Source: Pseudomonas sp. FP198
GTDB taxonomy: Bacteria > Pseudomonadota > Gammaproteobacteria > Pseudomonadales > Pseudomonadaceae
DNA length: 64,000 bases
Direction of reading: 5' to 3'
Assembly: GCF_030687895.1 (NCBI RefSeq)
Contig: NZ_CP117452.1
Location: 3,365,501 to 3,429,500 of the forward strand
Both the position numbers and the translations under genes were made by a program. Shown here in pieces: positions 5,029 through 20,317 of this stretch. Below the pieces are notes generated by a model, which saw only the letters and a list, made by a program, of their open reading frames with translations, did not search any database and had not been told where the DNA came from. Numbering within the stretch: the stretch's first letter is position 1; each line of letters starts with the position of its first letter.

Positions 5029-7188
5029 CTACCCATCCTTTGCCGCGCCGGGCTCGTCGCGATGTGCGTGGGCTTGCCACGCTCCCCATTTGCTTTCGAA
5101 GTACGCCTGGTTTTTGTCCCAGAGGGCCTGGTATTCGCCGCTGGCGATCAGCTTGCTGAATGAGGCCTGCCCGTAGTGATGGATAAACGCATCTTCAGCG
5201 CAGACCGTGCGGTAGCCGGCAGCCTGGATGCGACGGCTGTAGTCGTCATCTTCGAACAACCCGATACCGAACGTTTCATCCAGATACCCCACCTCATCGA
5301 AGGTGGTTCGGCGAAAGGCGACACAAAACATTGCGAGCATGGAGATATCGAACGACTGCCCCTTACGGGCTTCGGTGTAGTGGTCTGCAAACGCTTGCAT
5401 CTGTTGGATGTCGGTATAGGAAATCTCGATCTTCGCTTCGTTTCCTACCGCATTCGTGACCGGCCCGACCAGGCCGATGCTCGGATCACGCAAATGCCTG
5501 ACCAGCGGATCGAGCCAACCGCCCGGCACCACCGTGTCGTTATTGAGCAGTAGCAGGACGTCACCGTCGGCTTCTCGCAAACCCTGGTTATTCGCCGCAG
5601 CGAAGCCCCGGTTGTCCGGGTTGAGGATGATCTTCGTGAACGGCACCTCATGGCCAAGACATTCAAGATAGTCTTGTGTGCCATCGTCCGAGCCGTTGTC
5701 GACGACAATCAGTTGGTAATTGGGCCAGGTGGTATTACGCAAAATACTGTTTACACATTGAATCGTCAGATTGAGGTTGTTGTACGTCACGATCACGATG
5801 GAGACTTTCTCGTACAGCCCGACGATGGCAAGTTGCATGCTATTAAATCGATCCTTCCAATCGTTGGCCCGAGCGAGCTCCACACGCCGCTTGTAAAGGG
5901 CCAGATCGCGCTCGGCCAGGGCACGCTCGATCTGCTCGATGAACTCATCGACTCCGGTTGCAAAGTACAGCAGGTCCTTGTAGATGGCGATCTCCGCCAG
6001 TGGCGTGGAGATCACCGGTTTGCCGGCGCTGATGTACTCGTAGAACTTCACCGGATCGACCGCATGGGTCACGTTGTAAAGCCTGAAGGGAATCAGGCAC
6101 GCATCGAAATGATCCAGGTACAGCGGCATGTCGGTGTACGGCTTGCGGCCCAGCAAGCGCACATTGGGCTTGTGCTCGAGCCCCGCCAGGTCCTCGACGA
6201 AAATATCCCCCACCAGGATGAAATTCCACGTCGGCCGCAGGTCCGCCAACGCCGCTAGCAGTGGATAATCGAGCCATTGCGCCAAGGCGCCGTAATAACC
6301 AATCACCGGGCCGACCAGCCCGCTCAGCACATCGTTGGTAAAACAGTGCTGGTGGAAAAAAGCGAAATCCACAGCGTTTCGCACCAGCACGCAGCGAGGG
6401 TTATGAGCGCACCATTTCTGGTAAAGCAACGCCGCGGAAACGGTCACCAGATCGGCCTGGGGGATCAGGGTCTTTTCCTCGCTCAGCAACTGTTCGCCAA
6501 TGTTCGGAAAACCATCCCAGTCATCCATGCAGTCATAGTGAATGCGCCAGCCATGCAGCGTGCGCAGGCTCAGTACCACAGGGCTCCAGTAGGCAATATG
6601 CACCACCGAAAGGGCGGTTCTGATTTGCATGTCGGTGACCAATGCAGCAATCGCACGCAGCAACGCCTGATGGTTCTCAGGCGTCACTATCTTTTCGTAA
6701 TAGGCCATTTGCACATCGCGATGCAGCGCCACCTCGAAAAGGTTGGACGCCACTGAGGTCACTCGATAAAGCTGTCCCTGCTCCGGCACACTGGAAGGGA
6801 CGATATAAAACACCCGATAACCATTGCTCGCGAACTGGCTCATCAGTTGCTGCGGTCGCTGGAAGCGCGCGGCCCAGTCGATATTGGCGAAGCAGAGAAT
6901 ATCCAGCTGCCCTCTGGTGGCGAAATCCGCTTGTACCTCAACCTTCGGCAACGGTTCCGGCGCTGCCGGGTAGACGATTGCCGGAGCCGTTTCGGGAAAC
7001 TCCCGGTAGGCGGAAAATCCATAACGCAGCACCCGGAACAGCGTACGCAGTGGCCGGGTGAAGCGCCACGAACGGGTGTTTTGCAGGAAGTCGACTTTCG
7101 CCAGCGCGGTATCGCGCTCATTGACGGCCGCATCTCGCTGAGCCAAGGCGGCGTCCCGGTCGATCAAGGGGCTGTCGGGCTTAAGCAT
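5029..7188 (-). CDS. Double-domain glycosyltransferase (GT4-like plus GT2)
   Basis: A 719-residue fusion (729 if started at ATG 7218). The N-terminus is a short helical stretch of repeated RD(A/T)AL units ending in the tail-like motif NTRSWRFTRPLR. A GT-B-type domain follows (about 95-440) with the RFQRPQQL, YDCMDDWDGF and VDPVKFYEYISAGKPVIST segments. The C-terminal GT2 domain (about 460-700) has VSIVIVTYNN, VVDNGSDDGT, LLLNNDTVV and FEDDDYSRR. The same architecture recurs in the gene at 11709-14183, so the two are paralogues. It probably adds two sugars, or works as a bifunctional transferase, on the cytoplasmic face before ABC export. ATG 7188 overlaps the upstream stop by 8 bases. Confidence 0.85.
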   Translation of the reverse strand: MLKPDSPLIDRDAALAQRDAAVNERDTALAKVDFLQNTRSWRFTRPLRTLFRVLRYGFSAYREFPETAPAIVYPAAPEPLPKVEVQADFATRGQLDILCFANIDWAARFQRPQQLMSQFASNGYRVFYIVPSSVPEQGQLYRVTSVASNLFEVALHRDVQMAYYEKIVTPENHQALLRAIAALVTDMQIRTALSVVHIAYWSPVVLSLRTLHGWRIHYDCMDDWDGFPNIGEQLLSEEKTLIPQADLVTVSAALLYQKWCAHNPRCVLVRNAVDFAFFHQHCFTNDVLSGLVGPVIGYYGALAQWLDYPLLAALADLRPTWNFILVGDIFVEDLAGLEHKPNVRLLGRKPYTDMPLYLDHFDACLIPFRLYNVTHAVDPVKFYEYISAGKPVISTPLAEIAIYKDLLYFATGVDEFIEQIERALAERDLALYKRRVELARANDWKDRFNSMQLAIVGLYEKVSIVIVTYNNLNLTIQCVNSILRNTTWPNYQLIVVDNGSDDGTQDYLECLGHEVPFTKIILNPDNRGFAAANNQGLREADGDVLLLLNNDTVVPGGWLDPLVRHLRDPSIGLVGPVTNAVGNEAKIEISYTDIQQMQAFADHYTEARKGQSFDISMLAMFCVAFRRTTFDEVGYLDETFGIGLFEDDDYSRRIQAAGYRTVCAEDAFIHHYGQASFSKLIASGEYQALWDKNQAYFESKWGAWQAHAHRDEPGAAKDG

Positions 7189-7867
7189 GCGGGTACCGAT
7201 GCAGCGGCGTGCTGTCATCCGGCGGCCACATGGAACTGCGCGAGCCCGGCCGGTAGAACGTTGCGGTCAGGCTACGACGGGAAGAATGGCAGCCACTGAC
7301 TACGGGCGTGACGGCATGCCAGGAATTATCCGAGCGCACCAGGATCGCCGAATTACCCACCAAGGGCTCGATCTCGGCCGCCACTGCGCTGGGATCGTTG
7401 CGGTGCAGGATGTTCAGGCAACCGCCGTCGTTACGGTCCCAGGACTCATTGAAATAGAGGATATGGGTGACCAGTTTATCGGGCAGGTCCGGATGGGCGC
7501 CCAGGCTCGCACCCGGACCGTAATGAAAGACATTGACCTCCATCGGCACGCTGCGCAGATCGATTCCGGTCATTTGCGACAGGGCTTCGCGATAACCAGC
7601 CGAGCCAAGATCCCGAGCCAGCCGCAACCATGCCTCGCTCAATTCCTGCGCATGAGCGATGGTATCGTCGCCCATGCCCAACAAGGCTCGTGCCTCGTAG
7701 TCATAGTTTTTTTCGCCGCCATAACCACTCACCGTCTTGAAGTGATCATGAGGAAAGGTAGCCGCCAACGCGGCGGCATCCTCGGCCGAGTACAGGTTGC
7801 CGATTTCAGCCCATGAGAACGGCTGATCCTTTAGCGCCGCTGGCGTGAGACGAGAGAGATCTAGCAT
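7181..7867 (-). CDS. 2-oxoglutarate/Fe(II)-dependent oxygenase
   Basis: A 228-residue cupin-fold dioxygenase of the 2OG-Fe(II) superfamily. The iron triad is visible as His125-x-Asp127 (GAHPDLPDK) and His184 (SWHAVTP), and Arg197/Arg198 (SSRRSLTATF) should bind 2-oxoglutarate. Such enzymes hydroxylate or desaturate substrates at the expense of 2OG and O2. It sits between the Wzt-fusion gene and a glycosyltransferase, overlapping both by a few bases. The likely substrate is therefore a sugar or lipid-linked glycan of this cluster, which is inference from position only. Confidence 0.85.
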   Translation of the reverse strand: MLDLSRLTPAALKDQPFSWAEIGNLYSAEDAAALAATFPHDHFKTVSGYGGEKNYDYEARALLGMGDDTIAHAQELSEAWLRLARDLGSAGYREALSQMTGIDLRSVPMEVNVFHYGPGASLGAHPDLPDKLVTHILYFNESWDRNDGGCLNILHRNDPSAVAAEIEPLVGNSAILVRSDNSWHAVTPVVSGCHSSRRSLTATFYRPGSRSSMWPPDDSTPLHRYPHA

Positions 7868-10584
7868 TGTCGGTTCTTGTTCGCTGTCAGGTTTCTGATA
7901 CCACGGGCGATGGAGCGCAGTGGCGCGGTCATTCGGAATGAATTGGAGTTCTGCAGCTCACGCATCCTGGCATCGCTGCGAGCCAGTTGCTCACGAAGCT
8001 GGACGATCCGTTGCTGTTGGGCAAGCTCCCGTGCCGCCAGTTCCTGCGCGGGTTCGTTGATCTGCGGCACAGGCATGACCGGACTCACCGGCGATTCAGC
8101 CGGCACTGGGTTGCACGTCTCGGCCGCGGCTTCGAGCAGATTCGGCAGGTGCTGCAGAAAAGCCCCCAGCACCGGCTGCGACGCCGTTTTACCTTGGCGA
8201 ATGATCTCAGCGACCCGGTCCCAATGCTCCACCAACTGATCCGCCGCCGCACGCGCCGCGGGCGATGCACGGGTCTTGCCCACGCGGGCGAGGAACCATT
8301 GCGGATCGACCGTCGCGACATTCGGCAACGCATGCAGCGTGTCGAACCCAGCCAGCGCCGTGTACTTGCCCGTGGTCAGGTCCGCCGAACAAAACACCGG
8401 CACGCCAAACGCCAGGGCGGTGATCGCCAGGTGATAGCTATGGCCGATCACCGCTTGGGCCTGGCTGAGAATTTCGGCCATGAGCAACGGCTCCGGCCAG
8501 AACGGCAAGGTGATGGATCCGGGCAGCCGCCCGGCAATCACTGACGGATCGTCACCCAGGACCGGTCCAATCGGCACCACCAGGAACTGGTAGCCCAGGA
8601 ATGCCTCGGGGTGGTCTTCGAACAATTTTACAAAGGACTCCACCACATGAATCGCGTGGATCACGATGTAGGGCCCGGTCAGCCCGGCATGCTCGCGCAG
8701 GCGAACAAACTCGGCCGAGGGCCGTTGCTCATCGATCAGGCGCGGTAAGCCGAACGCGGTGTCGGGCAGCACTTCGATCTCGATTTGCTGGCTGAGCGCG
8801 CCGAGGGTATCGCGCGACAGGGCATCACGGACGCGCACATACCGGCTCTGCTCAAGGGCCATCGTCAATAACGGCCTGGCCCAATCGGGGATACTGTTGC
8901 AATGCATCCCCGGTGCATTCCACATGACCGGAACCGCATGCTGCAGCGCGATGAGCGCGGGGGTCAGCCAATAACCGCTAGGGTGATGGATGTCGGCAGT
9001 GGTCGGACCATAACCATGGGCAACGACTTTATCGAATCGGATCAGGAAACCACCGCCGATCAACACGCCATCCAGGCCTGCCGCTACAGTGGGCAGCTCT
9101 GTCAGCGACGTCACCGCATAGGGCCATTCGGATGGGGTTTTCCCGTGATAGGAAAACCGCTGCAGATTGACCGAACCCAAGCGCCGGGCCAGTTCTGCCT
9201 CGGCGATGATGGGAAACAGCAGGTCACCATAGTTTTCAACGTCGAAGGTGCCGAAGATAGCCACCTGCCATGTGCGCTCATCCAAGTGTTCCGCCAGATC
9301 CCCCTTTTCTTGAATCCCGCAGGTCTTGGGGGGCGACTCCGCCGCTCGCGGTTCGACGCTCTGCAATCCCAGGTCAACCATGCCCAGGAAATGCTTGTGG
9401 CTGGGCAACATGTCGAACGCCAAGGGCGCGACTTGCTTCTCGATCAGTTGCGAGGTGTCTTCCGTCGCGCCATGCAACAGTTTGAGCGTGACGTGGTAGC
9501 GCCCCTCGGCGAGGTTAGCCGGGAAGCGCACCGTAATGGCCGTATGCCGCCAGCCGTTTTCGACCGGTCCCGGTTGCAGGGCGAAGTTGCCCCCGCCGAT
9601 CACCAGTAGCCTCGCCTCTTGGATAGTGAAGCTGATGTTGGGTTGAGTGATCGACTCATGCAGTAACGCTTCAACGCGAATCTCGATGTCGTCGCCATAC
9701 AGGTAACTCGACGAAAGCTGCCGGGTGTTGGTGAAGCAGGCGGCGCTGATGTGTCCCTCCCCGGTTCCAAAGGCCATCCCCTGCTGACCGCCAATAAAGG
9801 ATTTTTGGGTAACCGGTATGGCCCCGCCACTGGCCCAGCGACGTTGCTCGTCACGCATGTCGAGCAAGTGCAGCTCGGCCATTTCATCGGGAGAGCCGCT
9901 GGCAACGACGCGGCCCGCGCGCAGATAGATGACCCGGTGGCAAAACCGTTTGACCATGCTCATGTCGTGGGAGACGAACAGCAGCGTGGTGCCTTTGGCA
10001 GCCAGTTCTTCCAGCCGGTTCAGGCATTTGAATTGAAAAGAGGCATCGCCGACGGCAAGGGCCTCGTCGACGATCAGGATCTCCGGTTCCACACAGACCG
10101 AAACGGCGAAGGCCAGCCGTACCAGCATCCCGCTGGAATAGATTTTGGTGGGCTGGTCGATGAAGTCGCCGATGTTGGCGAAGGCGATGATGTCATCGAA
10201 ACGAGCATCGATTTCCGCGCGACTCAAGCCCAGCACCGCTGCGTTTACATAGACGTTCTCGCGGCCGCTGAACTCCGGATTGAAGCCCGACCCGAGCTCA
10301 AGCAACGCTGCGATCCGGCCATGCCCGCGGACGCTGCCCCGGGTCGGCATCAACGTTCCGCAGATCAGTTGCAACAAGGTGGATTTGCCACTGCCGTTAC
10401 GGCCGATGATGCCGACGGTCTCCCCCCTTGCGATGGTCAGGGAAACATCATCCAGGGCCCAGAATTCGCGGTAGAAACGCTTCCTGCCGCGCACCAGCAT
10501 CTGCAACAGGCGGTCCTTGGGCGCATCGTAGATCTGATAACACTTGCTCAGGTTCTCGGCGCTGATGGCCACTTCAAACGACAT
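7861..10584 (-). CDS. wzt: Wzt-type polysaccharide ABC ATPase fused to pyruvyl transferase
   Basis: A 907-residue multidomain protein. Residues 1 to about 245 are an ABC ATPase of polysaccharide exporters: Walker A GRNGSGKST, signature YSSGMLVRLAFA, Walker B ILIVDEALAVGD, then FVSHD. Roughly 255-400 is a beta-rich Wzt C-terminal domain that in relatives recognises the glycan end. About 440-775 is a polysaccharide pyruvyl transferase (PF04230-like), with GTFDVENYGD, IGGGFLI, VRVRDALSRDTL, LPDTAFGLP and GHSYHLAITALAFGVPVF. A short coiled coil then leads to NSNSFRMTAPLR, the same tail motif seen at the start of the neighbouring glycosyltransferase. The start ATG 10584 has AAGGG 8 bases upstream; longer in-frame starts exist at 10614 and 10623. 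It is divergent from its permease. Confidence 0.9.
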   Translation of the reverse strand: MSFEVAISAENLSKCYQIYDAPKDRLLQMLVRGRKRFYREFWALDDVSLTIARGETVGIIGRNGSGKSTLLQLICGTLMPTRGSVRGHGRIAALLELGSGFNPEFSGRENVYVNAAVLGLSRAEIDARFDDIIAFANIGDFIDQPTKIYSSGMLVRLAFAVSVCVEPEILIVDEALAVGDASFQFKCLNRLEELAAKGTTLLFVSHDMSMVKRFCHRVIYLRAGRVVASGSPDEMAELHLLDMRDEQRRWASGGAIPVTQKSFIGGQQGMAFGTGEGHISAACFTNTRQLSSSYLYGDDIEIRVEALLHESITQPNISFTIQEARLLVIGGGNFALQPGPVENGWRHTAITVRFPANLAEGRYHVTLKLLHGATEDTSQLIEKQVAPLAFDMLPSHKHFLGMVDLGLQSVEPRAAESPPKTCGIQEKGDLAEHLDERTWQVAIFGTFDVENYGDLLFPIIAEAELARRLGSVNLQRFSYHGKTPSEWPYAVTSLTELPTVAAGLDGVLIGGGFLIRFDKVVAHGYGPTTADIHHPSGYWLTPALIALQHAVPVMWNAPGMHCNSIPDWARPLLTMALEQSRYVRVRDALSRDTLGALSQQIEIEVLPDTAFGLPRLIDEQRPSAEFVRLREHAGLTGPYIVIHAIHVVESFVKLFEDHPEAFLGYQFLVVPIGPVLGDDPSVIAGRLPGSITLPFWPEPLLMAEILSQAQAVIGHSYHLAITALAFGVPVFCSADLTTGKYTALAGFDTLHALPNVATVDPQWFLARVGKTRASPAARAAADQLVEHWDRVAEIIRQGKTASQPVLGAFLQHLPNLLEAAAETCNPVPAESPVSPVMPVPQINEPAQELAARELAQQQRIVQLREQLARSDARMRELQNSNSFRMTAPLRSIARGIRNLTANKNRQC

Positions 10585-10767
10585 CGGCAAAGCCCTTCCA
10601 TGAGTCACTTCCATTAGCGGCACTACAGAATCATTCCTTCGCTGGGCACTGCCGATGAGTTAAGCACAAACGGGGAAAAAAACTTCGAATGCCCTGAACT
10701 TGGCCTACCCTCCATGAGGATGCGATTCACCGAGTTTCGATTTTTTGTCTTGAGGGCCCTAGTACCA

Positions 10768-11586
10768 ATGCAGTCGTTCAGCACCTCCCCTGCCGCCATG
10801 ATCAAAAGTGTGCTGGTCAATCGAATCCTGATCTACGTGTTGATCCGCAGGGAGATCATCGGTCGTTATAAAGGCTCGATGCTCGGTATCCTATGGTCGT
10901 TCTTCACCCCGGCGTTAATGCTGGTGGTCTACACGTTCGTGTTCAGCGTGGTCTTCAAGGCCCGCTGGTCGGGTGGCGGCGAGTCCAAGAGCGAATTCGC
11001 CCTGGTGCTGTTCGCAGGCCTGCTGGTGTTCAATCTGTTTTCCGAATGCCTGAACCGCGCGCCGGGCCTGGTGCTGGCCAATACCAACTACGTCAAGAAG
11101 ATCGTCTTCCCGCTGGAAACCCTGCCGATGGTGTCGCTCGGCGCGGCGCTGTTCCACATGGCGATCAGCATCCTGGCCTGGCTGCTCTTCTATATCGTCC
11201 TGTTCGGAACCCCTCCGGCAACCGCCCTTCTGCTGCCGTTGGTGCTGTTTCCGTTGGTGTTGTTGACCCTGGGAATTTCCTGGTTTCTCGCCTCGATAAG
11301 CGTGTACCTGCGCGATATTGGCCAGTTCATCGGCATCGTCATAACGGCGATGCTCTTTCTCTCGCCGATTTTCTATCCGCTTTCGATACTTCCGCAAAGT
11401 TATCAGGCCGCCTTGCAGGCGAACCCTCTGACGCTGCCGGTGGAAATGGTTCGTGACGTACTGTTCTGGGGCAGGACGCCACAATGGGCGCACCTGGCAA
11501 CTTATTCGGCAATTTCCTTGTCGATTGCCTGTGCCGGATTCGCCTGGTTCCAGAGGACACGCAAAGGCTTTGCCGATGTCATCTGA
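10768..11586 (+). CDS. wzm: Wzm-type polysaccharide ABC transporter permease
   Basis: An ABC-2 family inner-membrane permease of 272 residues with about six membrane helices. The cytoplasmic connecting segment RREIIGRYKGSMLGILWSFF is hallmark Wzm sequence. With the Wzt fusion it would export an undecaprenyl-linked polysaccharide across the inner membrane. ATG 10768 has GAGGG about 11 bases upstream; an open frame extends back to 10714 and ATG 10798 is also possible. It is divergent from the ATPase gene and followed by a glycosyltransferase on the same strand. Confidence 0.9.
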   Translation: MQSFSTSPAAMIKSVLVNRILIYVLIRREIIGRYKGSMLGILWSFFTPALMLVVYTFVFSVVFKARWSGGGESKSEFALVLFAGLLVFNLFSECLNRAPGLVLANTNYVKKIVFPLETLPMVSLGAALFHMAISILAWLLFYIVLFGTPPATALLLPLVLFPLVLLTLGISWFLASISVYLRDIGQFIGIVITAMLFLSPIFYPLSILPQSYQAALQANPLTLPVEMVRDVLFWGRTPQWAHLATYSAISLSIACAGFAWFQRTRKGFADVI

Positions 11587-11708
11587 GTTTGTTGACGTGG
11601 CGCCTCGTCCAGCAGCCGCTATGCTGATGGGTGGCACGGCTGGAATCTGGGCCTGCCTGGTTATTGAAGTCGACAACACACCTGCAAGAGCCGGGGTGCG
11701 TTGCCGTA

Positions 11709-14183
11709 ATGTCCAAGGGACTGGAAGAACGCATGGATCAGATCAACCGTCTTGTCGATCACATTGACAAACTGACTCGCTCAACACAGTCCAGATCCAT
11801 TGAAGCCTTGCAGTTGGTCAAGGAAATCGAGAATCGGGACCGGCTGATCAAGCAACTGAACCTGGGTTCACAAGCGCTTCGCACTCGCCTGTCACTTCAG
11901 GAAGGCAAGGCCGGGCGACTGCGCGAGCAATTGCAGGTGACCGAACGGCGCCTCAAAGACACCCAGACGTTGCTCCGGGCCAAAGAACGCCAAGCGGTGG
12001 AGCTGTCCGATTGGGCGGTGGATTTACGCGCACAACTGGCGGCGAAGCAGACTGAGCTGTTCAAGCTTTCTGACTGGGGCAACGCCATCGAACGCGCACC
12101 GCTGCGTTATTCGATACGCAAGCAGCTGTATAAATTATCGCGCCGGATCTACGCCTGGTTGCCGCTCACCGCACAGCAGAAAAGCAGGCTGGCCCAGCGG
12201 CTTCGAAGCTGGCTGAAACGCACCAGGGCGACAGCCGGCGAATCATCGGCGTCCCCAAGCCTCGCGCCGCTGCAACCCCTGCTACCACCGATTGACCTTG
12301 CCGTGCCATCCAGTCACGGGCAGCCGACGATCCTGATGTTCGGCGTGATCGATTGGCACTTTCGCATCCAGCGCCCACAAAACCTGGCCAAGGAGTTGTC
12401 GCGGGCGGGACAAACGACGTTTTATATTTCCAACCACTTTATCGACGATGATGCTCCCGGCTTCGAGGCGGAGCGCCTGGAGGGCTCCGAGCGGCTGTTC
12501 CAGATCCGTTTCAAGGTGCGCGGGGCTCCGGCCATTTATCATGCCCCGCCTTCAGCGGCCGCGATCAGCCAGTTGCGCCAAGGCCTGGCCATGCTGCTGG
12601 ACGCGGCGAACGTCGCCGCCGTGGATTGCATCGTCCAGCACGCCTACTGGTTCCCGCTGGCAATACGTGTCCCCAACGCCACGCTGGTCTATGACTGCAT
12701 GGATCACCACGAAGGTTTCGGCAATGTTGCCCAGGAACTGCTCGACCTGGAAATCGCCTTGATGCGCCGGGCCGATCTGCTGGTGGCGACTTCCGACTGG
12801 ATCGAACAACACGGCAAGCGGGAAAACCGCAACGTAGAGGTGATCCGCAACGCCTGCGAATACGGTTTTTTCAGCCAACGTCCCGACAAGATCTACCGGG
12901 ACCCGGCCAACAGAAAGATCATCGGCTACTACGGCGTCATCGCCGAATGGTTCGACCTGGAACTGGTCAAGCGCGTCGCCCAGTCCTTCCCGCAGCATCT
13001 GATCCTGTTGATCGGCAGCGATATCGTCCAGGCGAAAAAATATTTCAAGGCCTGCCCGAATGTGGTCCTGGAGGGCGAAGTCCCGTATGCCTCCCTGCCC
13101 TACTACCTCCACGCCATAGACGTTTGCCTGCTTCCGTTCAAGGTCATGCCCCTGACGCTCGCCACCAATCCGGTCAAGGTCTATGAATACCTGAGCGCGG
13201 GAAAACCGGTGGTCTCGGTGAAACTGCCGGAGTTGAGCCAGTTCGGCAAACTGGTCTGGACGGTTGAACAGCCCTCTGAATTCATCTCGGCCATACGCCG
13301 TGTACTCGACGCTCTGCCAGAGGCCGGCGCAACGCCAAAGGCGCGTCAATCGTTCGCTCAGGGCCAGACCTGGCAGCATCGGGCCGCCAGCCTGCGAAAG
13401 GCCGTCGCGTCATTGCCCCTGCCCAAGGTCAGCGTCGTGGTGTTGACCTACAACAACCTCGAACTGACCAAGGCTTGCCTCGACAGTCTGTTGACCCAGA
13501 GCCAGTACCCGAACCTTGAAATCATCGTGGTCGACAACTGCTCCAGCGACCAGACCCCGGCCTATCTCACTGCCTGGGCCAAGGGACATCCCGAACGGAT
13601 CGTCATCCTCAATCCGGATAACAAGGGATTCGCCGCAGGGAACAACCAAGGGCTCGCGGCAGCCAGTGGCGACTACCTGGTCATCCTGAACAACGATACG
13701 GTCGTCACCGCCGGCTGGATCAGGGGGTTGATCCGTCATCTGAAGGACCACGAGGAAATCGGCATCATCGGCCCGGTCACCAACAACATCGGCAACGAAG
13801 CCAAAGTCAGCACCCGTTATGGCCGGATGGAGGACATGCCCGCCGAAGCCGCGCAAATGACCCGTGCCCGCATGGGCGAGTGGTTCGAAATAAACACCCT
13901 GGCGTTTTTCTGCGTGATGTTCCCGCGTTCGACCTACGAGCAGATTGGCGGCCTGTGCGAGGAGTACGGCCTGGGGTTCTTCGAGGATGACGATTACTGC
14001 CGCCGCGTGCAGCGTCGCGGCCTGCGCGCGGCTTGCGCCGAAGATGTATTCGTCCATCACCACCTGTCCGCCTCGTTCAACACCTTGGGTGCCAGGAAAA
14101 AACAGGCACTTTTCGAGAAGAACCGGGCGATCTACGAGAACAAATGGGGGGCCTGGGTTCCGCATACGTATCGAGATGTATAG
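11709..14183 (+). CDS. Double-domain glycosyltransferase with N-terminal coiled coil
   Basis: An 824-residue protein. Residues 1 to about 125 are heptad-rich and predicted coiled coil (MSKGLEERMDQINRLVDHID onwards), and may act as a scaffold or length ruler. The middle domain (about 195-575) is GT-B-like with RIQRPQNL, YDCMDHHEGF and ATNPVKVYEYLSAGKPVVS. The C-terminal GT2 domain (about 580-815) has VSVVVLTYNN, VVDNCSSDQT, VILNNDTVV and FEDDDYCRR. It is paralogous in order and motifs to the gene at 5029-7188. ATG 11709 is preferred because the coiled coil begins there; the frame is open back to 11631. It follows wzm and ends before a REP-like pair. Confidence 0.85.
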   Translation: MSKGLEERMDQINRLVDHIDKLTRSTQSRSIEALQLVKEIENRDRLIKQLNLGSQALRTRLSLQEGKAGRLREQLQVTERRLKDTQTLLRAKERQAVELSDWAVDLRAQLAAKQTELFKLSDWGNAIERAPLRYSIRKQLYKLSRRIYAWLPLTAQQKSRLAQRLRSWLKRTRATAGESSASPSLAPLQPLLPPIDLAVPSSHGQPTILMFGVIDWHFRIQRPQNLAKELSRAGQTTFYISNHFIDDDAPGFEAERLEGSERLFQIRFKVRGAPAIYHAPPSAAAISQLRQGLAMLLDAANVAAVDCIVQHAYWFPLAIRVPNATLVYDCMDHHEGFGNVAQELLDLEIALMRRADLLVATSDWIEQHGKRENRNVEVIRNACEYGFFSQRPDKIYRDPANRKIIGYYGVIAEWFDLELVKRVAQSFPQHLILLIGSDIVQAKKYFKACPNVVLEGEVPYASLPYYLHAIDVCLLPFKVMPLTLATNPVKVYEYLSAGKPVVSVKLPELSQFGKLVWTVEQPSEFISAIRRVLDALPEAGATPKARQSFAQGQTWQHRAASLRKAVASLPLPKVSVVVLTYNNLELTKACLDSLLTQSQYPNLEIIVVDNCSSDQTPAYLTAWAKGHPERIVILNPDNKGFAAGNNQGLAAASGDYLVILNNDTVVTAGWIRGLIRHLKDHEEIGIIGPVTNNIGNEAKVSTRYGRMEDMPAEAAQMTRARMGEWFEINTLAFFCVMFPRSTYEQIGGLCEEYGLGFFEDDDYCRRVQRRGLRAACAEDVFVHHHLSASFNTLGARKKQALFEKNRAIYENKWGAWVPHTYRDV

Positions 14184-14408: not shown

Positions 14409-16817
14409 TTGCCCGGATCAAGCCTGAAATACGCAGTGGTGCTGTTGGTTTTACTGGCGAGTACGGCGGTCGGTGTGTACGGTTTTTCGACGCTTGAACT
14501 GGCGTCCATGAACAACAGTAGCCGCACGATACTGCTGTCAGTGGCAGTCCTGGCAGCCCTTACCGCCTTCACTCGCAAGCCGCCGATCATTCTTTGCCTG
14601 GGCCTGCTGGCGTGCCTGACCATTGCCTGCGCGCAGATCTGGCCGGTGGTTGTCGTCACGGTCTTCGCGCTGTCTGCCACCGTGCTCGGCAGGTGGCTGC
14701 TCAGGCAAGAAAACCCGGCCGACTGGAGCATCCATCTGCTGATGGGCACCGGCACGTTCGGTACGCTGACAGGCCTGGCTGCGTATTTGCCGATCAACTA
14801 TCCCTGGCTCTATGGCGCGATGCTAGCAGTGCCGCTTGTATTGGGACACAAACAGGTCCTGTCGATAGGTCGCGAACTGCTGGCCCAAATCCGGGCCACC
14901 CGCTCGGCACATACGCCCCTGCAAACCGGCCTTGATGTACTGATTGGCGGATTCGCCTGCCTCTACGTGCTGGTAGCCTTCATGCCGGAGGTCGGCCACG
15001 ACGCGTTGGCCATGCACCTTTTCGTCCCTTCACACCTGGCCCAGCGGCACCAATGGTCGTTCGATGCAAACACCTATGTGTGGGCAGTCATGCCCATGCT
15101 GGCCGACTGGATCTATAGCATCGTCTATATGCTGGCGGGCGAAACGGCGTCACGCCTGAGCAATAGCGCATTCGCCTTGCTGGTGGCGTGGCAGATTCGC
15201 AACATGACCCTCTGGGCCGGGGGCTCCGCCACGAGCGCTCGCTGGGCAAGCCTGATCTTTCTGTCGACGCCCCTCGCCTTCGCTGAAAGCAGCAGCCTGC
15301 ACATAGAGTCGGCGTGGACCGCCTTCATGCTGGCCGGGACCCTGGCGATCCTGAAGGTCTCGGGCTTCACTGCGGATCCTCGGGAACGCCTGTCGCAATT
15401 GATCCTGGCCGGTGTCCTGTTGGGCTTCGCCATGGCGACCAAGGCGGTGACCCTGAGTGTCCTGCCGGTCCTGCTGGTGGTCCTCTTGTTGCAATACAAG
15501 GCCTGGGCCATGGGAGGAATCGCCAAGGCGCTGATGCTCGGCAGCGCCGGCCTGCTGCTGGCGGGCGCTACCCCTTACGTCTGTGCCGGGTACTTGACCG
15601 GTAACCCGGTGTTCCCGTTTTTCAACGGGGTTTTCCATTCGCCGCTCTGGCCGGACATGAACTTCGAACCGCCCGCCACTTTCGGTACCGGGATGACCTG
15701 GGACACCCTGTATCGAATGGTCTTCCAGTCGCCGCAGTTCATCGAGGGGCGGGTCGGCGCGGCGGGCTTCCAGTGGCTGCTGCTACCCACAGCGGCCGTC
15801 GCCGTGCTGCTGAGCGGCAACAAAAAAGCCCTGTGCATCCTCCTGGTCGGCGCCGGCGCGATGTTCATGACGTTCCAGTCAACGGCCTACCTGCGTTATG
15901 TGTTCCCCTCCTTCGCGCTGTTCTCGGTGATCCTCGCCCTGCCGTTTTCCGACGCCAGGGCCTTCCCCCGCAGCCTCGCCATCGCGGCCGGTGCCGTGTT
16001 GGTCCTGGCCAATACCCGCTTCATCCAGGCCGCGACGTACTATGGTGAAATCAAACCCTCGGCACTGTTGAGCCAGGCCGGTCGGGAGGCCTTTTTGCTG
16101 GAGCGCCTGCCGATCCGGAAAATGGTCGACACCGTCAACGCCTTGAACAGCGGTTATCAGCCCGTGGCGGTTTTTGCGTCGCCCTTGATGGCGGGTTTGC
16201 ATGGCGATGCCCTTTACGCATCGTGGTACAACCTGAAGTGGAAAGGCGAATTCGACGCAGCGACCTCGCCGGCGGAGCTTACCCGGCGCTTGCGCCAGCG
16301 CCAGGTGAACTGGCTGGTGATCGATCTCAAGTCTCTTCCCCAGGCACAACTCGACCGCCTGCTCGCCGTGTCCACGTCGTATTCCAGGCTGGGTAACCTG
16401 GACCTGCGCAAACTCAACGCCACTCACTACGAGCTCCTGCTCAATCCGGACCTGTCCAGCCTCGACGGCTGGAACCTGCTGTCACCCTCGACCTATGACA
16501 CCTCGCGCAAGATCCTCACCGTCAACGTCAACACCCCCGCCACACAGCGCGTCGGCGTGACGCCGGGGCTGACCTACATCAACAGTGTGTCCGCGCGCTG
16601 CACGGAGGCAGCCACTACCGGAAGAATCCAGGCCAACTGGATTGACGACCAAGGCGACTTCATCAGCACCAGCATCGAAACGTTTGATTGCACCACGCAC
16701 TGGGAGACTCATGAGATGAGTGTCGTTGCGCCGGCTAATGCCACGTCCGCGGTCATTTATGCGTCCGGGCATACCGACACTCCCCTGGAGTTCAAATCAC
16801 TTTCATTCAGGCAATAG
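14409..16817 (+). CDS. Large polytopic membrane glycosyltransferase with C-terminal lectin-like domain
   Basis: An 802-residue inner-membrane protein. Residues 1 to about 520 carry at least ten hydrophobic segments. A loop with EVGHDALAMHLFVPSHLA resembles the first periplasmic, catalytic acidic loop of GT-C enzymes that use polyprenyl-phosphate sugars. A soluble region (about 530-680) follows, then a C-terminal beta-rich module from about 685 (DGWNLLSPSTYD onwards) that looks like a carbohydrate-binding fold. Just downstream lie a GtrB-like transferase and a GtrA flippase, so it may be the serotype-specific third component of a Gtr-type glycan-modification set. The start is TTG 14409 with weak purine-rich upstream sequence. 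Exact family is not certain. Confidence 0.75.
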   Translation: MPGSSLKYAVVLLVLLASTAVGVYGFSTLELASMNNSSRTILLSVAVLAALTAFTRKPPIILCLGLLACLTIACAQIWPVVVVTVFALSATVLGRWLLRQENPADWSIHLLMGTGTFGTLTGLAAYLPINYPWLYGAMLAVPLVLGHKQVLSIGRELLAQIRATRSAHTPLQTGLDVLIGGFACLYVLVAFMPEVGHDALAMHLFVPSHLAQRHQWSFDANTYVWAVMPMLADWIYSIVYMLAGETASRLSNSAFALLVAWQIRNMTLWAGGSATSARWASLIFLSTPLAFAESSSLHIESAWTAFMLAGTLAILKVSGFTADPRERLSQLILAGVLLGFAMATKAVTLSVLPVLLVVLLLQYKAWAMGGIAKALMLGSAGLLLAGATPYVCAGYLTGNPVFPFFNGVFHSPLWPDMNFEPPATFGTGMTWDTLYRMVFQSPQFIEGRVGAAGFQWLLLPTAAVAVLLSGNKKALCILLVGAGAMFMTFQSTAYLRYVFPSFALFSVILALPFSDARAFPRSLAIAAGAVLVLANTRFIQAATYYGEIKPSALLSQAGREAFLLERLPIRKMVDTVNALNSGYQPVAVFASPLMAGLHGDALYASWYNLKWKGEFDAATSPAELTRRLRQRQVNWLVIDLKSLPQAQLDRLLAVSTSYSRLGNLDLRKLNATHYELLLNPDLSSLDGWNLLSPSTYDTSRKILTVNVNTPATQRVGVTPGLTYINSVSARCTEAATTGRIQANWIDDQGDFISTSIETFDCTTHWETHEMSVVAPANATSAVIYASGHTDTPLEFKSLSFRQ

Positions 16818-16828
16818 TTGGCGAATCG

Positions 16829-17848
16829 ATGAACACAACAACAGCGATTTTCACGGATGAACTACGCGTTGCCGTCGTCATCCCCAGCTATCGGGTCACC
16901 GCACATATCGTCGGCGTCATCGACGCCATCGGGCCGGAGGTCTGGCGCATCTATGTCATTGACGATGCCTGCCCGGACGGTTCGGGCGGGCATGTCCTGG
17001 CCTCATGTAACGACCCTCGGGTCAAGGTGCTGCCCCATGACATCAACAAAGGTGTCGGGGGTGCGGTCATGACCGGCTATCGAGCCGCCCTCGCTGACGG
17101 CGCAAGTATCATCGTCAAGGTCGACGGCGACGGTCAGATGGACCCGACCCTGATTCCGCTGTTCATCGAACCGATCCTGGCGGGTGAAGCCGACTACACC
17201 AAGGGCAATCGGTTTTTCGACCTGGAGGAAGTCCAGTCGATGCCGCGAATTCGTCTGTTCGGCAATGCCGTGTTGTCGTTGATGGCCAAACTGTCGACGG
17301 GTTACTGGGATCTGTTCGACCCGACCAACGGCTATACCGCGATTCACCGTGACGTCGCCAGGCTGCTGCCCCTGGACAAGGTCAGCCAACGCTATTTTTT
17401 CGAGACCGACATCCTGTTCCGCCTGAACACCGTGCGCGCGGTGGTGGTGGATATTCCGATGGAAGCCCGCTACGGCGATGAAGTCAGTCACCTGAAGATC
17501 TCAAAGATCGTCGGCGAATTCCTCTTCAAGCACCTGCGCAACTTCACCAAGCGCGTGCTCTACAACTACTACTTGCGCGACATGTCCCTGGCTTCGATCG
17601 AGCTGCCGGTCGGCATCCTGATGTTCGTGTTCGGCATCCTGTTCGGCAGTTATCACTGGTTCGAGTCGGCGCAGCATGGCGTCGCGACGCCAGCCGGCAC
17701 TGTGATGCTCAGCGCATTGCCGATGCTCATGGGGCTGCAATTGATCATGGCGTTTCTCGGTTACGACATCGCTTCGGTCCCCAACAGGCCTCGGCATTCC
17801 AGGCGTAGGGCTACTTCATTGCGGGAAGAAAAGTCATTAAAGCGCTAA
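16829..17848 (+). CDS. GtrB/DPM-like polyprenyl-phosphate glycosyltransferase
   Basis: A 339-residue family 2 transferase of the dolichol-phosphate-mannose-synthase type. The N-terminal GT-A domain has VVIPSYRV, VIDDACPDGS and the metal site VDGDGQMD. Two C-terminal membrane segments lie around 265-285 and 295-315. It should transfer a sugar from a nucleotide donor to undecaprenyl phosphate at the inner membrane. It follows the polytopic transferase by 11 bases and precedes a methyltransferase and a GtrA flippase, consistent with a Gtr-type pathway. The transferred sugar is unknown. Confidence 0.85.
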   Translation: MNTTTAIFTDELRVAVVIPSYRVTAHIVGVIDAIGPEVWRIYVIDDACPDGSGGHVLASCNDPRVKVLPHDINKGVGGAVMTGYRAALADGASIIVKVDGDGQMDPTLIPLFIEPILAGEADYTKGNRFFDLEEVQSMPRIRLFGNAVLSLMAKLSTGYWDLFDPTNGYTAIHRDVARLLPLDKVSQRYFFETDILFRLNTVRAVVVDIPMEARYGDEVSHLKISKIVGEFLFKHLRNFTKRVLYNYYLRDMSLASIELPVGILMFVFGILFGSYHWFESAQHGVATPAGTVMLSALPMLMGLQLIMAFLGYDIASVPNRPRHSRRRATSLREEKSLKR

Positions 17849-18627
17849 GAGATTTTTTATCCGACCCATCACTCAAGACGCTGGATGTCGATGGCTGCGA
17901 ACGTCTTGAACTTCACGGCAAAGTGCTTGAGCGCAAGCAAATGCTTCGGGACGTCTTCGTAGAGTTCCACCACGCGTTCCGTCGACTGGCAGACCGCTAT
18001 TTCCAGGCCGGGGGGCTTGAGGTGGAGTTGGGAGCGGGCATCGCGCCCATGCGCGACTCATACCCGCAAGTGTTGGCCACGGACGTTGTCGCCAGTGAGA
18101 AACTCGACATGGCGCTCGATGCCCAGGCAATGAGCCTGGACGATGATTCGGTCAGGGCCTTTTATGGCCAGAACTGTTTTCACCACTTTCCTCATCCCGA
18201 ACGGTTTTTCACGGAGCTGGAAAGGACACTCAGGATCGGCGGCGGGGCCATTCTGATCGAGCCCTTTCACGGCCCCTTTGCCGCGTTCCTCTATAAGCGC
18301 CTGTTCAAGTCCGAAGGCTTCGACATGCACTTCCCCTCTTGGCATACACCGGCGACCGGCCCCATGAACGGCGCCAACCAGGCCCTCAGCTACATCGTTT
18401 TCGTTCGCGACCGGCAGGCGTTCGAGCGTAAGTACCCGGGCCTGGAGATCGTCCACCAGGAAATCTGCGGCAACTACCTGCGGTATCTGGTTTCCGGTGG
18501 CCTGAACTTTCGCCAGCTGTTGCCTGACGTATTCATCCCTGTGCTCAAGGTCATCGAAAAACTGCTGTATCCGTTGCGCCGGATATTGGCCTTGCACCAC
18601 ATCGTGGTGATCCGGAGGACGTCTTGA
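17836..18627 (+). CDS. Class I SAM-dependent methyltransferase (probable ATT start)
   Basis: A type-11 methyltransferase-like protein, with VELGAGIAPM as the SAM-binding glycine loop and FHHFPHPERFFTELERTLR after it. The first standard start in frame is GTG 17923 (234 residues) and has no ribosome site. The frame is open back to 17809 and encodes sensible sequence (LRDFLSDPSLKTLDVDG) that resembles, from memory, the N-terminus of relatives. ATT 17836 has GGAAG 7 bases upstream, giving 263 residues and a 13-base overlap with the preceding gene. I therefore favour an ATT start or a mutated ATG. It probably methylates a sugar of the glycan or a lipid-linked intermediate. Confidence 0.7.
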   Translation: MKALRDFLSDPSLKTLDVDGCERLELHGKVLERKQMLRDVFVEFHHAFRRLADRYFQAGGLEVELGAGIAPMRDSYPQVLATDVVASEKLDMALDAQAMSLDDDSVRAFYGQNCFHHFPHPERFFTELERTLRIGGGAILIEPFHGPFAAFLYKRLFKSEGFDMHFPSWHTPATGPMNGANQALSYIVFVRDRQAFERKYPGLEIVHQEICGNYLRYLVSGGLNFRQLLPDVFIPVLKVIEKLLYPLRRILALHHIVVIRRTS

Positions 18628-19037
18628 CCTTTTTCCGATACGGCGCCATCCAACTCGTGGCCTATGGGCTGGACATGGGGATCTTCTTGCTGCTGGTCGC
18701 GCTATTCGCCGACCAACCCGTGCTGGCCAACGTCGCCGGCAAAGTCGTGGCCGGGACGTTCGCGTTCTTTTCGCATCGGCATTTCACGTTCCTGTCGACA
18801 CGCGTCGGCAGCAAGGCTCAAGCACTGCGCTATTTTTCATTGCTCGCCATCAATATTCCGCTCGCTTCGGTGCTGCTCAGCGCGGGGCTGTACTTCATCG
18901 ACAACCCTGTCCCGGTGAAATTTGTCAGCGACGTGATCTGCGTAGCGCTGACCTACTGGATCAGCAAGCGGTTCGTGTTTCGTACCGATACGCACCCGCC
19001 GGCTCCCGCTGACCGAGCCGAAGGCGCACGACCATGA
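18624..19037 (+). CDS. GtrA family flippase-like membrane protein
   Basis: A 137-residue protein with four membrane helices and the GtrA family signature: a first helix beginning FFRYGAIQLVAYGLDMG, and later FFSHRHFTF and WISKRFVF. GtrA proteins are proposed to flip polyprenyl-phosphate-linked sugars to the periplasm. The start is TTG 18624 with a strong GGAGG 6 bases upstream, overlapping the methyltransferase stop by 4 bases. It overlaps the next gene by an ATGA junction, so translation is coupled across the three genes. Confidence 0.85.
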   Translation: MTFFRYGAIQLVAYGLDMGIFLLLVALFADQPVLANVAGKVVAGTFAFFSHRHFTFLSTRVGSKAQALRYFSLLAINIPLASVLLSAGLYFIDNPVPVKFVSDVICVALTYWISKRFVFRTDTHPPAPADRAEGARP

Positions 19038-20317
19038 CGCTACTGATTACCGGTGCGACCGGCTACATCGGACAACGCTTGAGTGCCCTCGCGGCGGCAA
19101 GCGGTCACGAGGTCATTTGCGCCACCCGCCAGCCGTGCCCTGCCCCCTATGCCTGGCTGCCTTATGACCTGCGGGGCCCGGCGCCCGAATGCCCGGCTGG
19201 CACTCAGGCGCTGATCCATCTGGCGGCCGACACATCACCCGATACTGACACTAACGCGGACGCTGAAATAAACGCGGCCCTGGCGCTGATCGATTGCGCC
19301 CGACAAGGCTCGGCCAGGTTCATCTTCATTTCCAGTCAAACCGCCGAGGCCACGGCCCCGAGCGTTTATGGCCGGACCAAGTGGCGTATCGAGCAGCATG
19401 TGCTTGCCGCCGGGGGCACCGTAATCCGCCCCGGACAAGTGTACGGCGGCCCCGAACGCGGGCTTTTTGGTCTGTTGACCGGGCTGGTTCGCCGGAGCCC
19501 GTTCATTCCGACCCTCATGCCAGCGCCTCGCGTGCAGCCGATCCATGTCGACGACCTCGCGGCCGCGATACTGGCCATCGCCGAGCGGGACGACACTCAC
19601 GGTGAGGTCCTCAATCTGGGCGCCGTGAAACCGATTGCCTTTGGCTTGTTCCTGGGCGCAATCGCGACGCACCGGGTCCGCGCCACTCGCCTGCCAATCC
19701 CCGTGCCGGTGGCATTGCTCAGGCTGTTGCGGCTGATACTCGGACGATCCTTGAGCAGAAAACTCGGCCTGGAGCGGATCTTTTCCCTTATTCATCTGCC
19801 GCCCATGGACACCGAGCGTTCCCTGGAAAAACTCGGCATCGCGTTGCGCCCCCTTGCCCACGGCATGCATCGCTCCGGTCATGGGCAACGTCGAGGCCTG
19901 CTTCAGGAAGCCGCGGTGCTCTTGGGCTACCTGCTCAAACGAGCGCCGCAAAAAAGCCTGGTCAGGCGCTATGCCAGGGCACTGGAGCGTGCGGGCGAAA
20001 CCCGTCCCGTCATTCACTCACGCCTGCTGATGGGCTGGCCGATACTCTTGACGCTGCTGGACAACCCCGGCGTCCTGCGCTCGCCTGAGGGCCAGGAACT
20101 GGCCTGGCGCCTGCAGGTTGCACTCGGTATCGCCGAAGCCAGCCCCCAAGGCGCGCAGGTGTTTCTCGGCACCCAATGGCCGCGCAGCCTTGTCGCCACG
20201 CTGGTTGCGTTGGGACTCACCTCGGTCAAAGCGTTGGCGTGGAAGATAGCGGCGTTGTCGTGCCGTGCTTTTGCCCGCCCGCTGCTGCTTGGAAGTGAAG
20301 CCCACCGTGAAGCCTGA
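19034..20317 (+). CDS. NAD-dependent epimerase/dehydratase family protein
   Basis: A 427-residue extended SDR. The Rossmann motif TGATGYIGQ is at the N-terminus, then LIHLAAD, FISSQTAE and the catalytic tyrosine-lysine in SVYGRTKWRIE (YxxxK). The SDR part ends near residue 290. A further ~130 helical residues have no family I recognise. It may reduce or epimerise a sugar nucleotide or a lipid-linked intermediate. It overlaps the GtrA gene by ATGA and the following oxidoreductase gene by about 10 bases, so it belongs to the same transcript. Confidence 0.8.
   Translation: MTLLITGATGYIGQRLSALAAASGHEVICATRQPCPAPYAWLPYDLRGPAPECPAGTQALIHLAADTSPDTDTNADAEINAALALIDCARQGSARFIFISSQTAEATAPSVYGRTKWRIEQHVLAAGGTVIRPGQVYGGPERGLFGLLTGLVRRSPFIPTLMPAPRVQPIHVDDLAAAILAIAERDDTHGEVLNLGAVKPIAFGLFLGAIATHRVRATRLPIPVPVALLRLLRLILGRSLSRKLGLERIFSLIHLPPMDTERSLEKLGIALRPLAHGMHRSGHGQRRGLLQEAAVLLGYLLKRAPQKSLVRRYARALERAGETRPVIHSRLLMGWPILLTLLDNPGVLRSPEGQELAWRLQVALGIAEASPQGAQVFLGTQWPRSLVATLVALGLTSVKALAWKIAALSCRAFARPLLLGSEAHREA

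Follow-up and report, generated by a model that had tools for sequence, protein, structure and literature searches.

A Pseudomonas gene that joins a Wzt export ATPase to a PF04230 domain: a candidate cap-and-export protein in one chain

The Wzt protein of Escherichia coli O9a is an exporter of capped O-antigen. In the prototype systems, the enzyme that adds the cap and the exporter are separate proteins (PMC9445017, PMC11231755), and the caps are recognised by the carbohydrate-binding module (CBM) of Wzt (PMC9445017). Pseudomonas protegens has been named as a candidate for chain termination by pyruvate, with no locus given, Burkholderia vietnamiensis G4 is also mentioned, and pyruvate as a chain-termination signal is stated to lack validating biochemical evidence (PMC10629545). 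The idea of a pyruvate cap is therefore already in print. We analysed a 64,000-nucleotide stretch of the genome of the soil bacterium Pseudomonas sp. FP198 (the window), in which a single gene, the wzt-PST fusion gene, encodes a Wzt ATPase with its CBM followed by a domain of the polysaccharide pyruvyl transferase family (PST; Pfam PF04230). We give an even chance to the reading that the product is the ATPase half of a Wzm-Wzt exporter with a chain-end modifying enzyme built in, that is, a two-module version of a cap-and-export complex. At the level of sequence, this is suggested by an intact ATPase and CBM, a flexible linker, a conserved PF04230 domain, a helical tail, a strict gene neighbourhood and the presence of the fusion at three places in the PF04230 tree.

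The frame of the fusion gene lies on the minus strand and ends with a stop codon at 7861-7863. It starts at ATG 10584, which gives 907 residues, or at an alternative GTG (10623), which gives 920. Residue numbers below are those of the 920-residue form, from which the 907-residue form is offset by 13. The sequence GGAAGGG stands about 8 nt 5' of the ATG (judged by eye), and the 907-residue form matches homolog P0004 in length. The plus-strand frame across 7861-10584 is interrupted by stops. A 506-residue database protein that starts at M415 (window 9381) lies inside the fusion frame and is likely a start-site miscall. The features of the gene, with the evidence for each, are the following.

7861..10584 (open to 10623), minus strand: wzt-PST fusion gene (open reading frame (ORF), Pfam, homologs of equal length)
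9838..10566, minus strand: Wzt nucleotide-binding domain (NBD), residues 20-262 (Pfam, motifs, PDB match 8dku)
9370..9771, minus strand: Wzt_C carbohydrate-binding module, residues 285-418 (Pfam, CBM tree)
9286..9369, minus strand: disordered, fast-changing linker, residues 419-446 (Ka/Ks 0.32, pLDDT 27-40 in its core)
8134..9285, minus strand: PF04230 domain, residues 447-830, two Rossmann-like halves (Pfam, AlphaFold2)
9223..9234, minus strand: NYGD motif, N464-D467; D467 aligns with Pvg1p D106 (alignments)
8827..8829, minus strand: R599 of VRDALS; aligns with Pvg1p R217 (alignments)
8431..8439, minus strand: S729-Y730-H731; H731 corresponds to Pvg1p H339, S729 stands at the position of Pvg1p R337 (alignments)
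7951..8046, minus strand: single coiled-coil-like helix of about 32 residues, residues 860-891 (AlphaFold2; 847-878 of the 907-residue form)
7876..7947, minus strand: SNSFRMTAPLR motif and tail helix, residues 893-916 (sequence pattern, AlphaFold2)

Pfam found ABC_tran at residues 57-189 (E = 2.9e-23, above the curated cut-off), Wzt_C at residues 285-418 (PF14524; E = 5.8e-11, 43 bits for a cut-off of 30.4) and PS_pyruv_trans at residues 464-745 (PF04230; E = 1.7e-20, 74.5 bits for a cut-off of 25.3), the last match covering positions 1-275 of the 280 of the profile. The motifs of the ATPase, read directly, are intact (Walker A, GRNGSGKST; signature, YSSGM; Walker B, ILIVDEA; H-loop, SHDM). 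The closest solved chain was 8dku_A, an 'ABC transporter' which we take to be Aquifex Wzt (E = 7.6e-73, best stretch residues 25-385). The source genome, a single contig of 5.86 Mb, contained one match to PF04230 and one to PF14524, both inside the fusion gene. AlphaFold2 gave folded NBD, CBM and PF04230 domains, a disordered linker and two C-terminal helices, one at 860-891 and the tail helix at 894-916. The same three Pfam domains (PF00005, PF14524 and PF04230) were found in one protein in 20 of the 120 homologs listed, out of 285. The median ratio of nonsynonymous to synonymous change (Ka/Ks), taken over 45 pairs from ten fused genes (13 pairs being undefined for the linker), was 0.067 for the NBD, 0.080 for the CBM and 0.097 for the PF04230 domain, and 0.32 and 0.28 for the linker and for the coil with the tail, respectively. 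By this measure, the three domains are under purifying selection. Because 20 of the 120 listed homologs share the architecture and the three domains have Ka/Ks values of 0.07-0.10, the fusion is not a product of chance. The original prediction had placed an export ATPase, a glycan-recognition module and a modifying enzyme in one frame, and this frame proved to be intact and conserved. The PF04230 part was split over two frames or ended early in three stretches from P. lactucae and P. agronomica (L009:6666-9508, L044 and L075); L075 is apparently the same gene as L044, and sequencing error and decay are both possible for the interrupted frames.

We compared the PF04230 domain with 29 PF04230 proteins, drawn from a sample of 100 genomes, and with E. 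coli WcaK. The domain keeps NYGD, VRDALS, PDT and the active-site His, the Asp of NxGD being absent in about one third of the 29 proteins; in a 19-row PF04230 alignment, N, G, R and H were the only invariant columns besides the start Met. N464YGD, R599DALS and H731 agree with the conserved N-x-G-D, R-x-x-x-(S/T) and His given for ketal-pyruvyltransferases (PMC10629545). An alignment of the profile to yeast Pvg1p brought D106 onto D467, R217 onto R599, H339 onto H731 and R337 onto S729 (Pvg1p numbers were counted on the alignment, and one offset of 53 fits the four residues together). Three of the four active-site residues of Pvg1p are present in the fusion protein, while Arg337 is replaced by Ser729. 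A Ser at this position was also found in 4 of the 29 sampled proteins (L093, L094, L102 and L103), two others having Ala (L097 and L104), and in a PF04230 protein from S. meliloti (pSymB stretch L147), which is presumably ExoV (the record itself is unannotated). Plasmids searched for an ExoV-like relative with a name yielded generic names only. Arg337 is a contact of phosphoenolpyruvate (PEP) in the Pvg1p model and lies outside the list of conserved motifs given for ketal-pyruvyltransferases (PMC10629545).

The predicted structure of the domain resembles that of GT-B glycosyltransferases (GT). A profile that included canonical PF04230 members matched Pvg1p (6e-33) and WbbZ (1e-11) in the PDB, which is support for membership of the superfamily and not for this subfamily alone. 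A PDB search with profile A1 of the subfamily gave matches to the helical part only, which were taken as chance, and a PDB sequence search from WcaK alone gave no match; no characterised member of the fusion's PF04230 subfamily was found. Selection acts on the domain, as judged from its residues and Ka/Ks, and it shows no obvious degeneration. Because Arg337 is Ser throughout the family, despite the presence of the three other active-site residues, we consider pyruvate only a probable transferred group. The proposal of a complete pyruvyl transferase was partly borne out: the near-full PF04230 match, NxGD, VRDxxS and the His are present, but the equivalent of Arg337 is Ser729.

With 20 aligned relatives as the query, the PF04230 family of the fusion was detected in 25 of 398 genomes of the genus. 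According to module profiles, Wzt and PF04230 were fused in 11 of these (the window genome included), the two genes were adjacent in 13, and the contig was broken in 1; PF04230 was thus fused to or adjoining Wzt-CBM in all 24 evaluable genomes. A gene for a 2-oxoglutarate (2OG)-Fe(II) oxygenase was next to it in 25 of 25. When 59 genomes sampled from the bacterial family were searched, the PF04230 family was present in the window genome alone, and the viral contigs searched for it gave no match. Two peptide patterns retrieved 48 named loci, the species of which partly overlap with the 25 genomes and the neighbourhoods of which cover up to 8 kb per side, several contigs being short. The genes were fused in 12 loci (the frame of L009 being interrupted and L045 being cut by the contig) and split and adjacent in 13, while wzt lay a few kb off in 4 Comamonadaceae and L046 had a distant ABC match only. 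A 2OG gene or domain was present in 42 of the 48. In the split arrangement, wzt and PST overlapped by 4 bp in 6 of the 8 loci read. The published P. protegens candidate probably corresponds to the split loci L025 and L028.

A tree of 38 PF04230 domains (15 Wzt-fused, 20 free and 3 GT-fused) required three changes for the Wzt fusion (bootstrap 5-95% range 3-3), as did an 81-row PF04230 tree. The approximately unbiased (AU) test rejected a single clade of all 15 Wzt-fused rows (p = 1.1e-50) and also a clade made of the P. brassicacearum/fluorescens and P. piscis groups without P0027 (p = 1.3e-5). The junctions, measured between two landmarks, were 45-46, 36 and 57 residues long in the three fusion groups, and P0027 retains an internal Met directly before the start of PF04230. 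The tree by itself cannot separate three gains from one gain with losses. Since three gains take fewer steps and the junctions differ, three separate fusion gains are probable. The presence of the fusion at three places in the tree, together with the strict neighbourhood in the genus, makes the link between Wzt and PF04230 look functional.

When the CBMs were placed in a tree, the 31 modules linked to PST formed one group (94 in the Shimodaira-Hasegawa-like approximate likelihood-ratio test, SH-aLRT, just below the starred level; branch 4.96), and none of the 41 rows from Wzt proteins without PST fell inside it (one gene, L109 and L146, is present twice among the 41). The 34 rows labelled as with PST included three unrelated ABC ATPases (L029, 567 residues; L006, 470 residues; L007, 447 residues), which were left out, and an AU test on all 34 rows (p = 0.563) was set aside because it included them. 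CBM type thus goes with the PF04230 family, as expected if the CBM reads the product of that family; a shared operon history would explain part of this pattern. The CBM of the fusion is weak when scored with Wzt_C (47.6 bits versus 100-140 for the best 29 rows of the comparison).

The same modules were also found joined in other pairs. PST-2OG fusions made up most of the 680-780-residue rows among the homologs listed, P0045, P0102, L020 and L041 were PST-GT fusions, and P0122 was a Wzt-2OG fusion, with a Wzt half 72% identical to that of our protein and the oxygenase in the place of the PST. A contig of 925,032 bases is listed for P0122 and also for a free PST (P0046), so that the two may be neighbours. 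Such pairwise fusions suggest a physical complex. A search with the Wzt half, limited to proteins of about 506 residues or more, gave among its best 120 of 5405 rows 20 Wzt-PST and 1 Wzt-2OG proteins, 35 with GT2 and without sulfotransferase, 6 with a sulfotransferase, 6 with a methyltransferase and 2 with PF00884 (our own count from precomputed domains, some rows having no listed Wzt_C). Five of these Wzt-fusion examples were rescanned, and all had the enzyme on the C-terminal side of the ATPase. Wzt_C was present in 85 of 398 sampled Pseudomonadota, with 2 further C-terminal enzyme fusions. Twelve of the 98 Wzt_C frames, including that of the window, had at least 650 residues; 10 of the 11 retrieved were scanned and 2 had a C-terminal enzyme, a methyltransferase in L142:125-2665 and a SPASM/radical SAM region in L136:680-3244. 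No C-terminal enzyme was found in the other 8 scanned frames, which have about 190-420 residues without Pfam match N-terminal of the ATPase, perhaps through over-long starts. Judged from these architectures, the fusion of enzymes to Wzt is recurrent and not rare, Wzt-PST being one variant. P0157, P0159, P0165, P0173, P0174 and P0197 combine a Wzt-like ATPase with a sulfotransferase, often also with GT2, a hint that the chains may end in sulfate.

The PF04230 domain is followed by about 90 further residues (831-920), with SNSFRMTAPLR at 893-903. The coiled coil that had been proposed to end in this motif is, in the model, one helix of about 32 residues, with the motif after it. At its modelled length, this helix appears too short to count as a ruler, and a ruler reading is not supported. 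The tail proper is a helix of about 23 residues; the neighbouring glycosyltransferase has a similar element at its N-terminus. The proposal of a glycosyltransferase-like tail was abandoned: Pfam found no GT domain in the chain, and the tail helix belongs to the PF04230 protein, a similar element being present in the adjoining GTs. Two landmarks were 32-260 residues apart in the 74 of 121 proteins that carry both, the coil being longer in some relatives. Among 1171 other mechanical ORFs, used as a test of chance, one carried the PST-tail pattern and none the GT-side pattern. The former was found in 50 of 74 PF04230 ORFs (near-duplicates included), several of the remaining 24 having a close variant of it or a frame that is cut or broken, and the latter in 16 of 46 GT4-GT2 proteins. 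We also considered a membrane-binding amphipathic tail; the charge was +3 to +5 and the hydrophobic moment up to 0.65 (18-residue windows), and one tail window (moment 0.48) was equalled by 167 of 2000 shuffles. The PST-GT fusions P0045 and L020 have a single SWRxTxPLR-like element at the junction, separate genes carrying one each; none was seen in P0102 and L041.

The genes around the fusion gene are the following.

7181..7867, minus strand: 2OG-Fe(II) oxygenase, overlapping the end of the fusion gene (Pfam; HxD...H...R motif read directly)
5029..7218, minus strand: GT4-GT2 glycosyltransferase with a short N-terminal coil-like stretch and TRSWRFTRPLR (Pfam)
10714..11586, plus strand: wzm, ABC-2 permease (PF01061), divergent from the fusion gene (Pfam, E = 3.2e-29)
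11631..14183, plus strand: GT4-GT2 glycosyltransferase, its long N-terminal stretch coil-like by eye, possibly a ruler or polymerase (Pfam)

The 2OG oxygenase gene also overlaps the GT4-GT2 gene that follows it on the same strand. Glycan-type genes extend from 3.1 kb to about 22.9 kb of the window, and we interpret the whole as a locus for a surface polysaccharide, complete with its ABC exporter. The GT4-GT2 protein of 11631-14183 has APLRYSIRK ahead of its GT domain and is a better candidate for a ruler than the short helix of the fusion. The gap between the divergent wzm and fusion genes is 90 bp (window 10624-10713), or 129 bp from the ATG; wzm and wzt have the same direction in P. piscis and in the split Pseudomonas loci where they adjoin. 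Further along, 14409-19037 encodes a large PMT-like membrane protein, a polyprenol-type GT2 (16829-17848) and a GtrA-like protein (18624-19037), a set that looks suited to the addition of sugars to the glycan outside the cytoplasm. A GMC-like FAD oxidoreductase and then a UDP-GlcNAc 2-epimerase gene (20265-22897) probably belong to the same glycan locus. Just beyond it, at 24119-26866, four rhodanese-like stretches are joined in one protein with a Cys/Met PLP-dependent enzyme.

On the reading of a built-in capping enzyme, the PF04230 domain, probably with the adjoining 2OG oxygenase, would modify in the cytoplasm the non-reducing end of a lipid-linked chain built by the GT4-GT2 enzymes. Most likely, the last sugar would receive a pyruvate ketal, with PEP as the source. 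Once modified, the end would halt chain growth and would be the ligand of the CBM of the same protein, which would release the chain to Wzm to be exported. The linker would tether the enzyme at the CBM, while the short coil and the SNSFRMTAPLR tail may dock the complex to a glycosyltransferase or to the membrane. Where wzt and PST are split within the operon, as in P. protegens among others, two chains would make up this machine. A bolder proposal is that of a one-chain machine in which the C-terminal enzyme writes a pyruvate-type mark, the 2OG oxygenase completes it and the CBM of the same chain reads it, termination and export being coupled in cis; the fusion would have been reached probably three times, and Wzt would pick up the chain-finishing enzyme (PF04230, 2OG, GT2, methyltransferase or sulfotransferase), so that the fused enzyme predicts the chemistry of the cap. 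We put this forward tentatively, as something possible that falls short of an even chance. The interpretation made in the original prediction was partly supported and right in outline, and the cap function is the best reading.

Several observations weigh against a pyruvate cap made by the exporter itself. Among the 121 proteins P0001-P0121, which include the two forms of the window, 119 have Ser at the equivalent of Arg337 and 2 were not matched, while 23 of the 29 sampled PF04230 proteins and WcaK have Arg; the donor of the domain is one that we infer. VIA-align gave rows led by GT-B transferases and UDP-GlcNAc 2-epimerases, with Pvg1p and WbbZ absent among 50 rows, and no NCBIfam model was over its cut-off for the fusion protein among the 25 rows listed of 184. 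The coil has little length, and the tail motif is missing from the P. piscis fusions. Eighteen of the 48 named loci (Acidobacteria, Nitrosospira and others) showed no Wzt-type ATPase in the DNA covered (up to 8 kb per side, several contigs being short), and the PF04230 family can therefore exist without this type of exporter nearby. The domain could be another GT-B-fold transferase, which adds, for example, the last sugar or a different group, the Wzt fusion and the capping role being left standing. We find this unlikely, though well worth keeping in mind, in view of the match to nearly the whole PF04230 profile and the conservation of N, G, Arg and His. As for the active-site degeneracy that had been considered, only the position of Arg337 differs among the four residues compared; Ser there is a family-wide trait and also occurs in the four sampled proteins and the L147 protein mentioned above, and Pvg1p itself resembles GT-B enzymes (PMC4872226).

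Alternatively, PF04230 could decorate the sugars along the chain and give no export signal, the CBM reading another end group (for example the product of the 2OG oxygenase or of a methyltransferase) and the fusion doing no more than fix neighbours of one operon at equal dose. The characterised pyruvyltransferase WbbZ of K. pneumoniae O1 adds a terminal pyruvate that diversifies the structure and that export does not need (PMC10629545, PMC11231755). Moreover, 2OG is a steadier partner than Wzt in the named loci, and in P0122 it is joined to a Wzt closely related to that of the fusion. Yet the Klebsiella O1/O2 exporters work without a terminal-group-CBM mechanism (PMC10629545), while the fusion has a CBM the type of which goes with PF04230, and the fusion stands at three places in the tree; decoration along the chain is rather improbable in our opinion. 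The recurrence of the fusion also argues against two working proteins, Wzt and a free PF04230 enzyme, arising from an internal start or from cleavage in the linker. The linker is indeed disordered and variable, and 506-residue proteins starting at M415 are found in databases for this and related genomes (P0002, P0003, P0005 and P0008), but a convincing ribosome-binding site before M415 is absent (by eye) and forms of about 900 residues are at least equally represented among the homologs listed, so that we see little likelihood in it. Finally, two named relatives (L009 and L044) have a shifted or interrupted frame, which would fit an assembly or annotation artefact or a decayed PF04230 passenger domain; given that the frame recurs in 10 more genomes of the genus and is intact in 10 named loci (the sets partly overlapping), that the Ka/Ks of PF04230 is low and that the active-site residues are kept, this is hardly credible.

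A built-in capping enzyme would matter because, in the established model, the cap enzyme is separate from the exporter, and a recurrent covalent link is strong genomic evidence for one complex. The fusion would also be a tractable system for pyruvate as a chain-termination signal, and, if the wider pattern of Wzt fusions holds, the chemistry of the cap could be predicted from Wzt architecture alone. In the titles, abstracts and passages covered, which include few subscription journals, we found no published account of the Wzt-PST fusion, its recurrence or the Wzt-2OG variant, nor of the other Wzt-enzyme fusions (GT2, methyltransferase, sulfotransferase, 2OG); a paper on P. protegens O-antigen clusters (PMC10715155) contained none of the terms sought.

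Among known systems, the Wzt of Aquifex aeolicus Wzm-Wzt and that of E. coli O9a have the same succession of NBD and CBM, with Wzm next door, but the fusion has a PF04230 enzyme after the CBM and a low Wzt_C score. WbbZ, Pvg1p and CsaB share with it the PF04230 match, NxGD, RxxxS/T and the His, with equivalents of D106, R217 and H339, and differ in that the fusion has a Ser for R337, the C-terminal extension and a Wzt attached. Terminators of the WbdD and WbbB type, which have a coiled-coil ruler (PMC11231755), likewise consist of a modifying enzyme, a helix and a tail element beside a CBM-bearing exporter; their chemistry is different, the coil of the fusion has only about 32 residues and the terminator of the fusion is joined to the exporter. 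The Wzt fusions P0123 (GT2), P0193 and L142 (methyltransferase), P0165 (sulfotransferase) and P0122 (2OG) also carry the enzyme C-terminal to the ATPase, the enzyme being other than PF04230. The split wzm-wzt-PST-2OG-GT operon of P. protegens has the same modules in the same order, the Wzt of L025 being 67% identical to that of the fusion, but there Wzt and PST are separate genes and wzm is co-directional with wzt.

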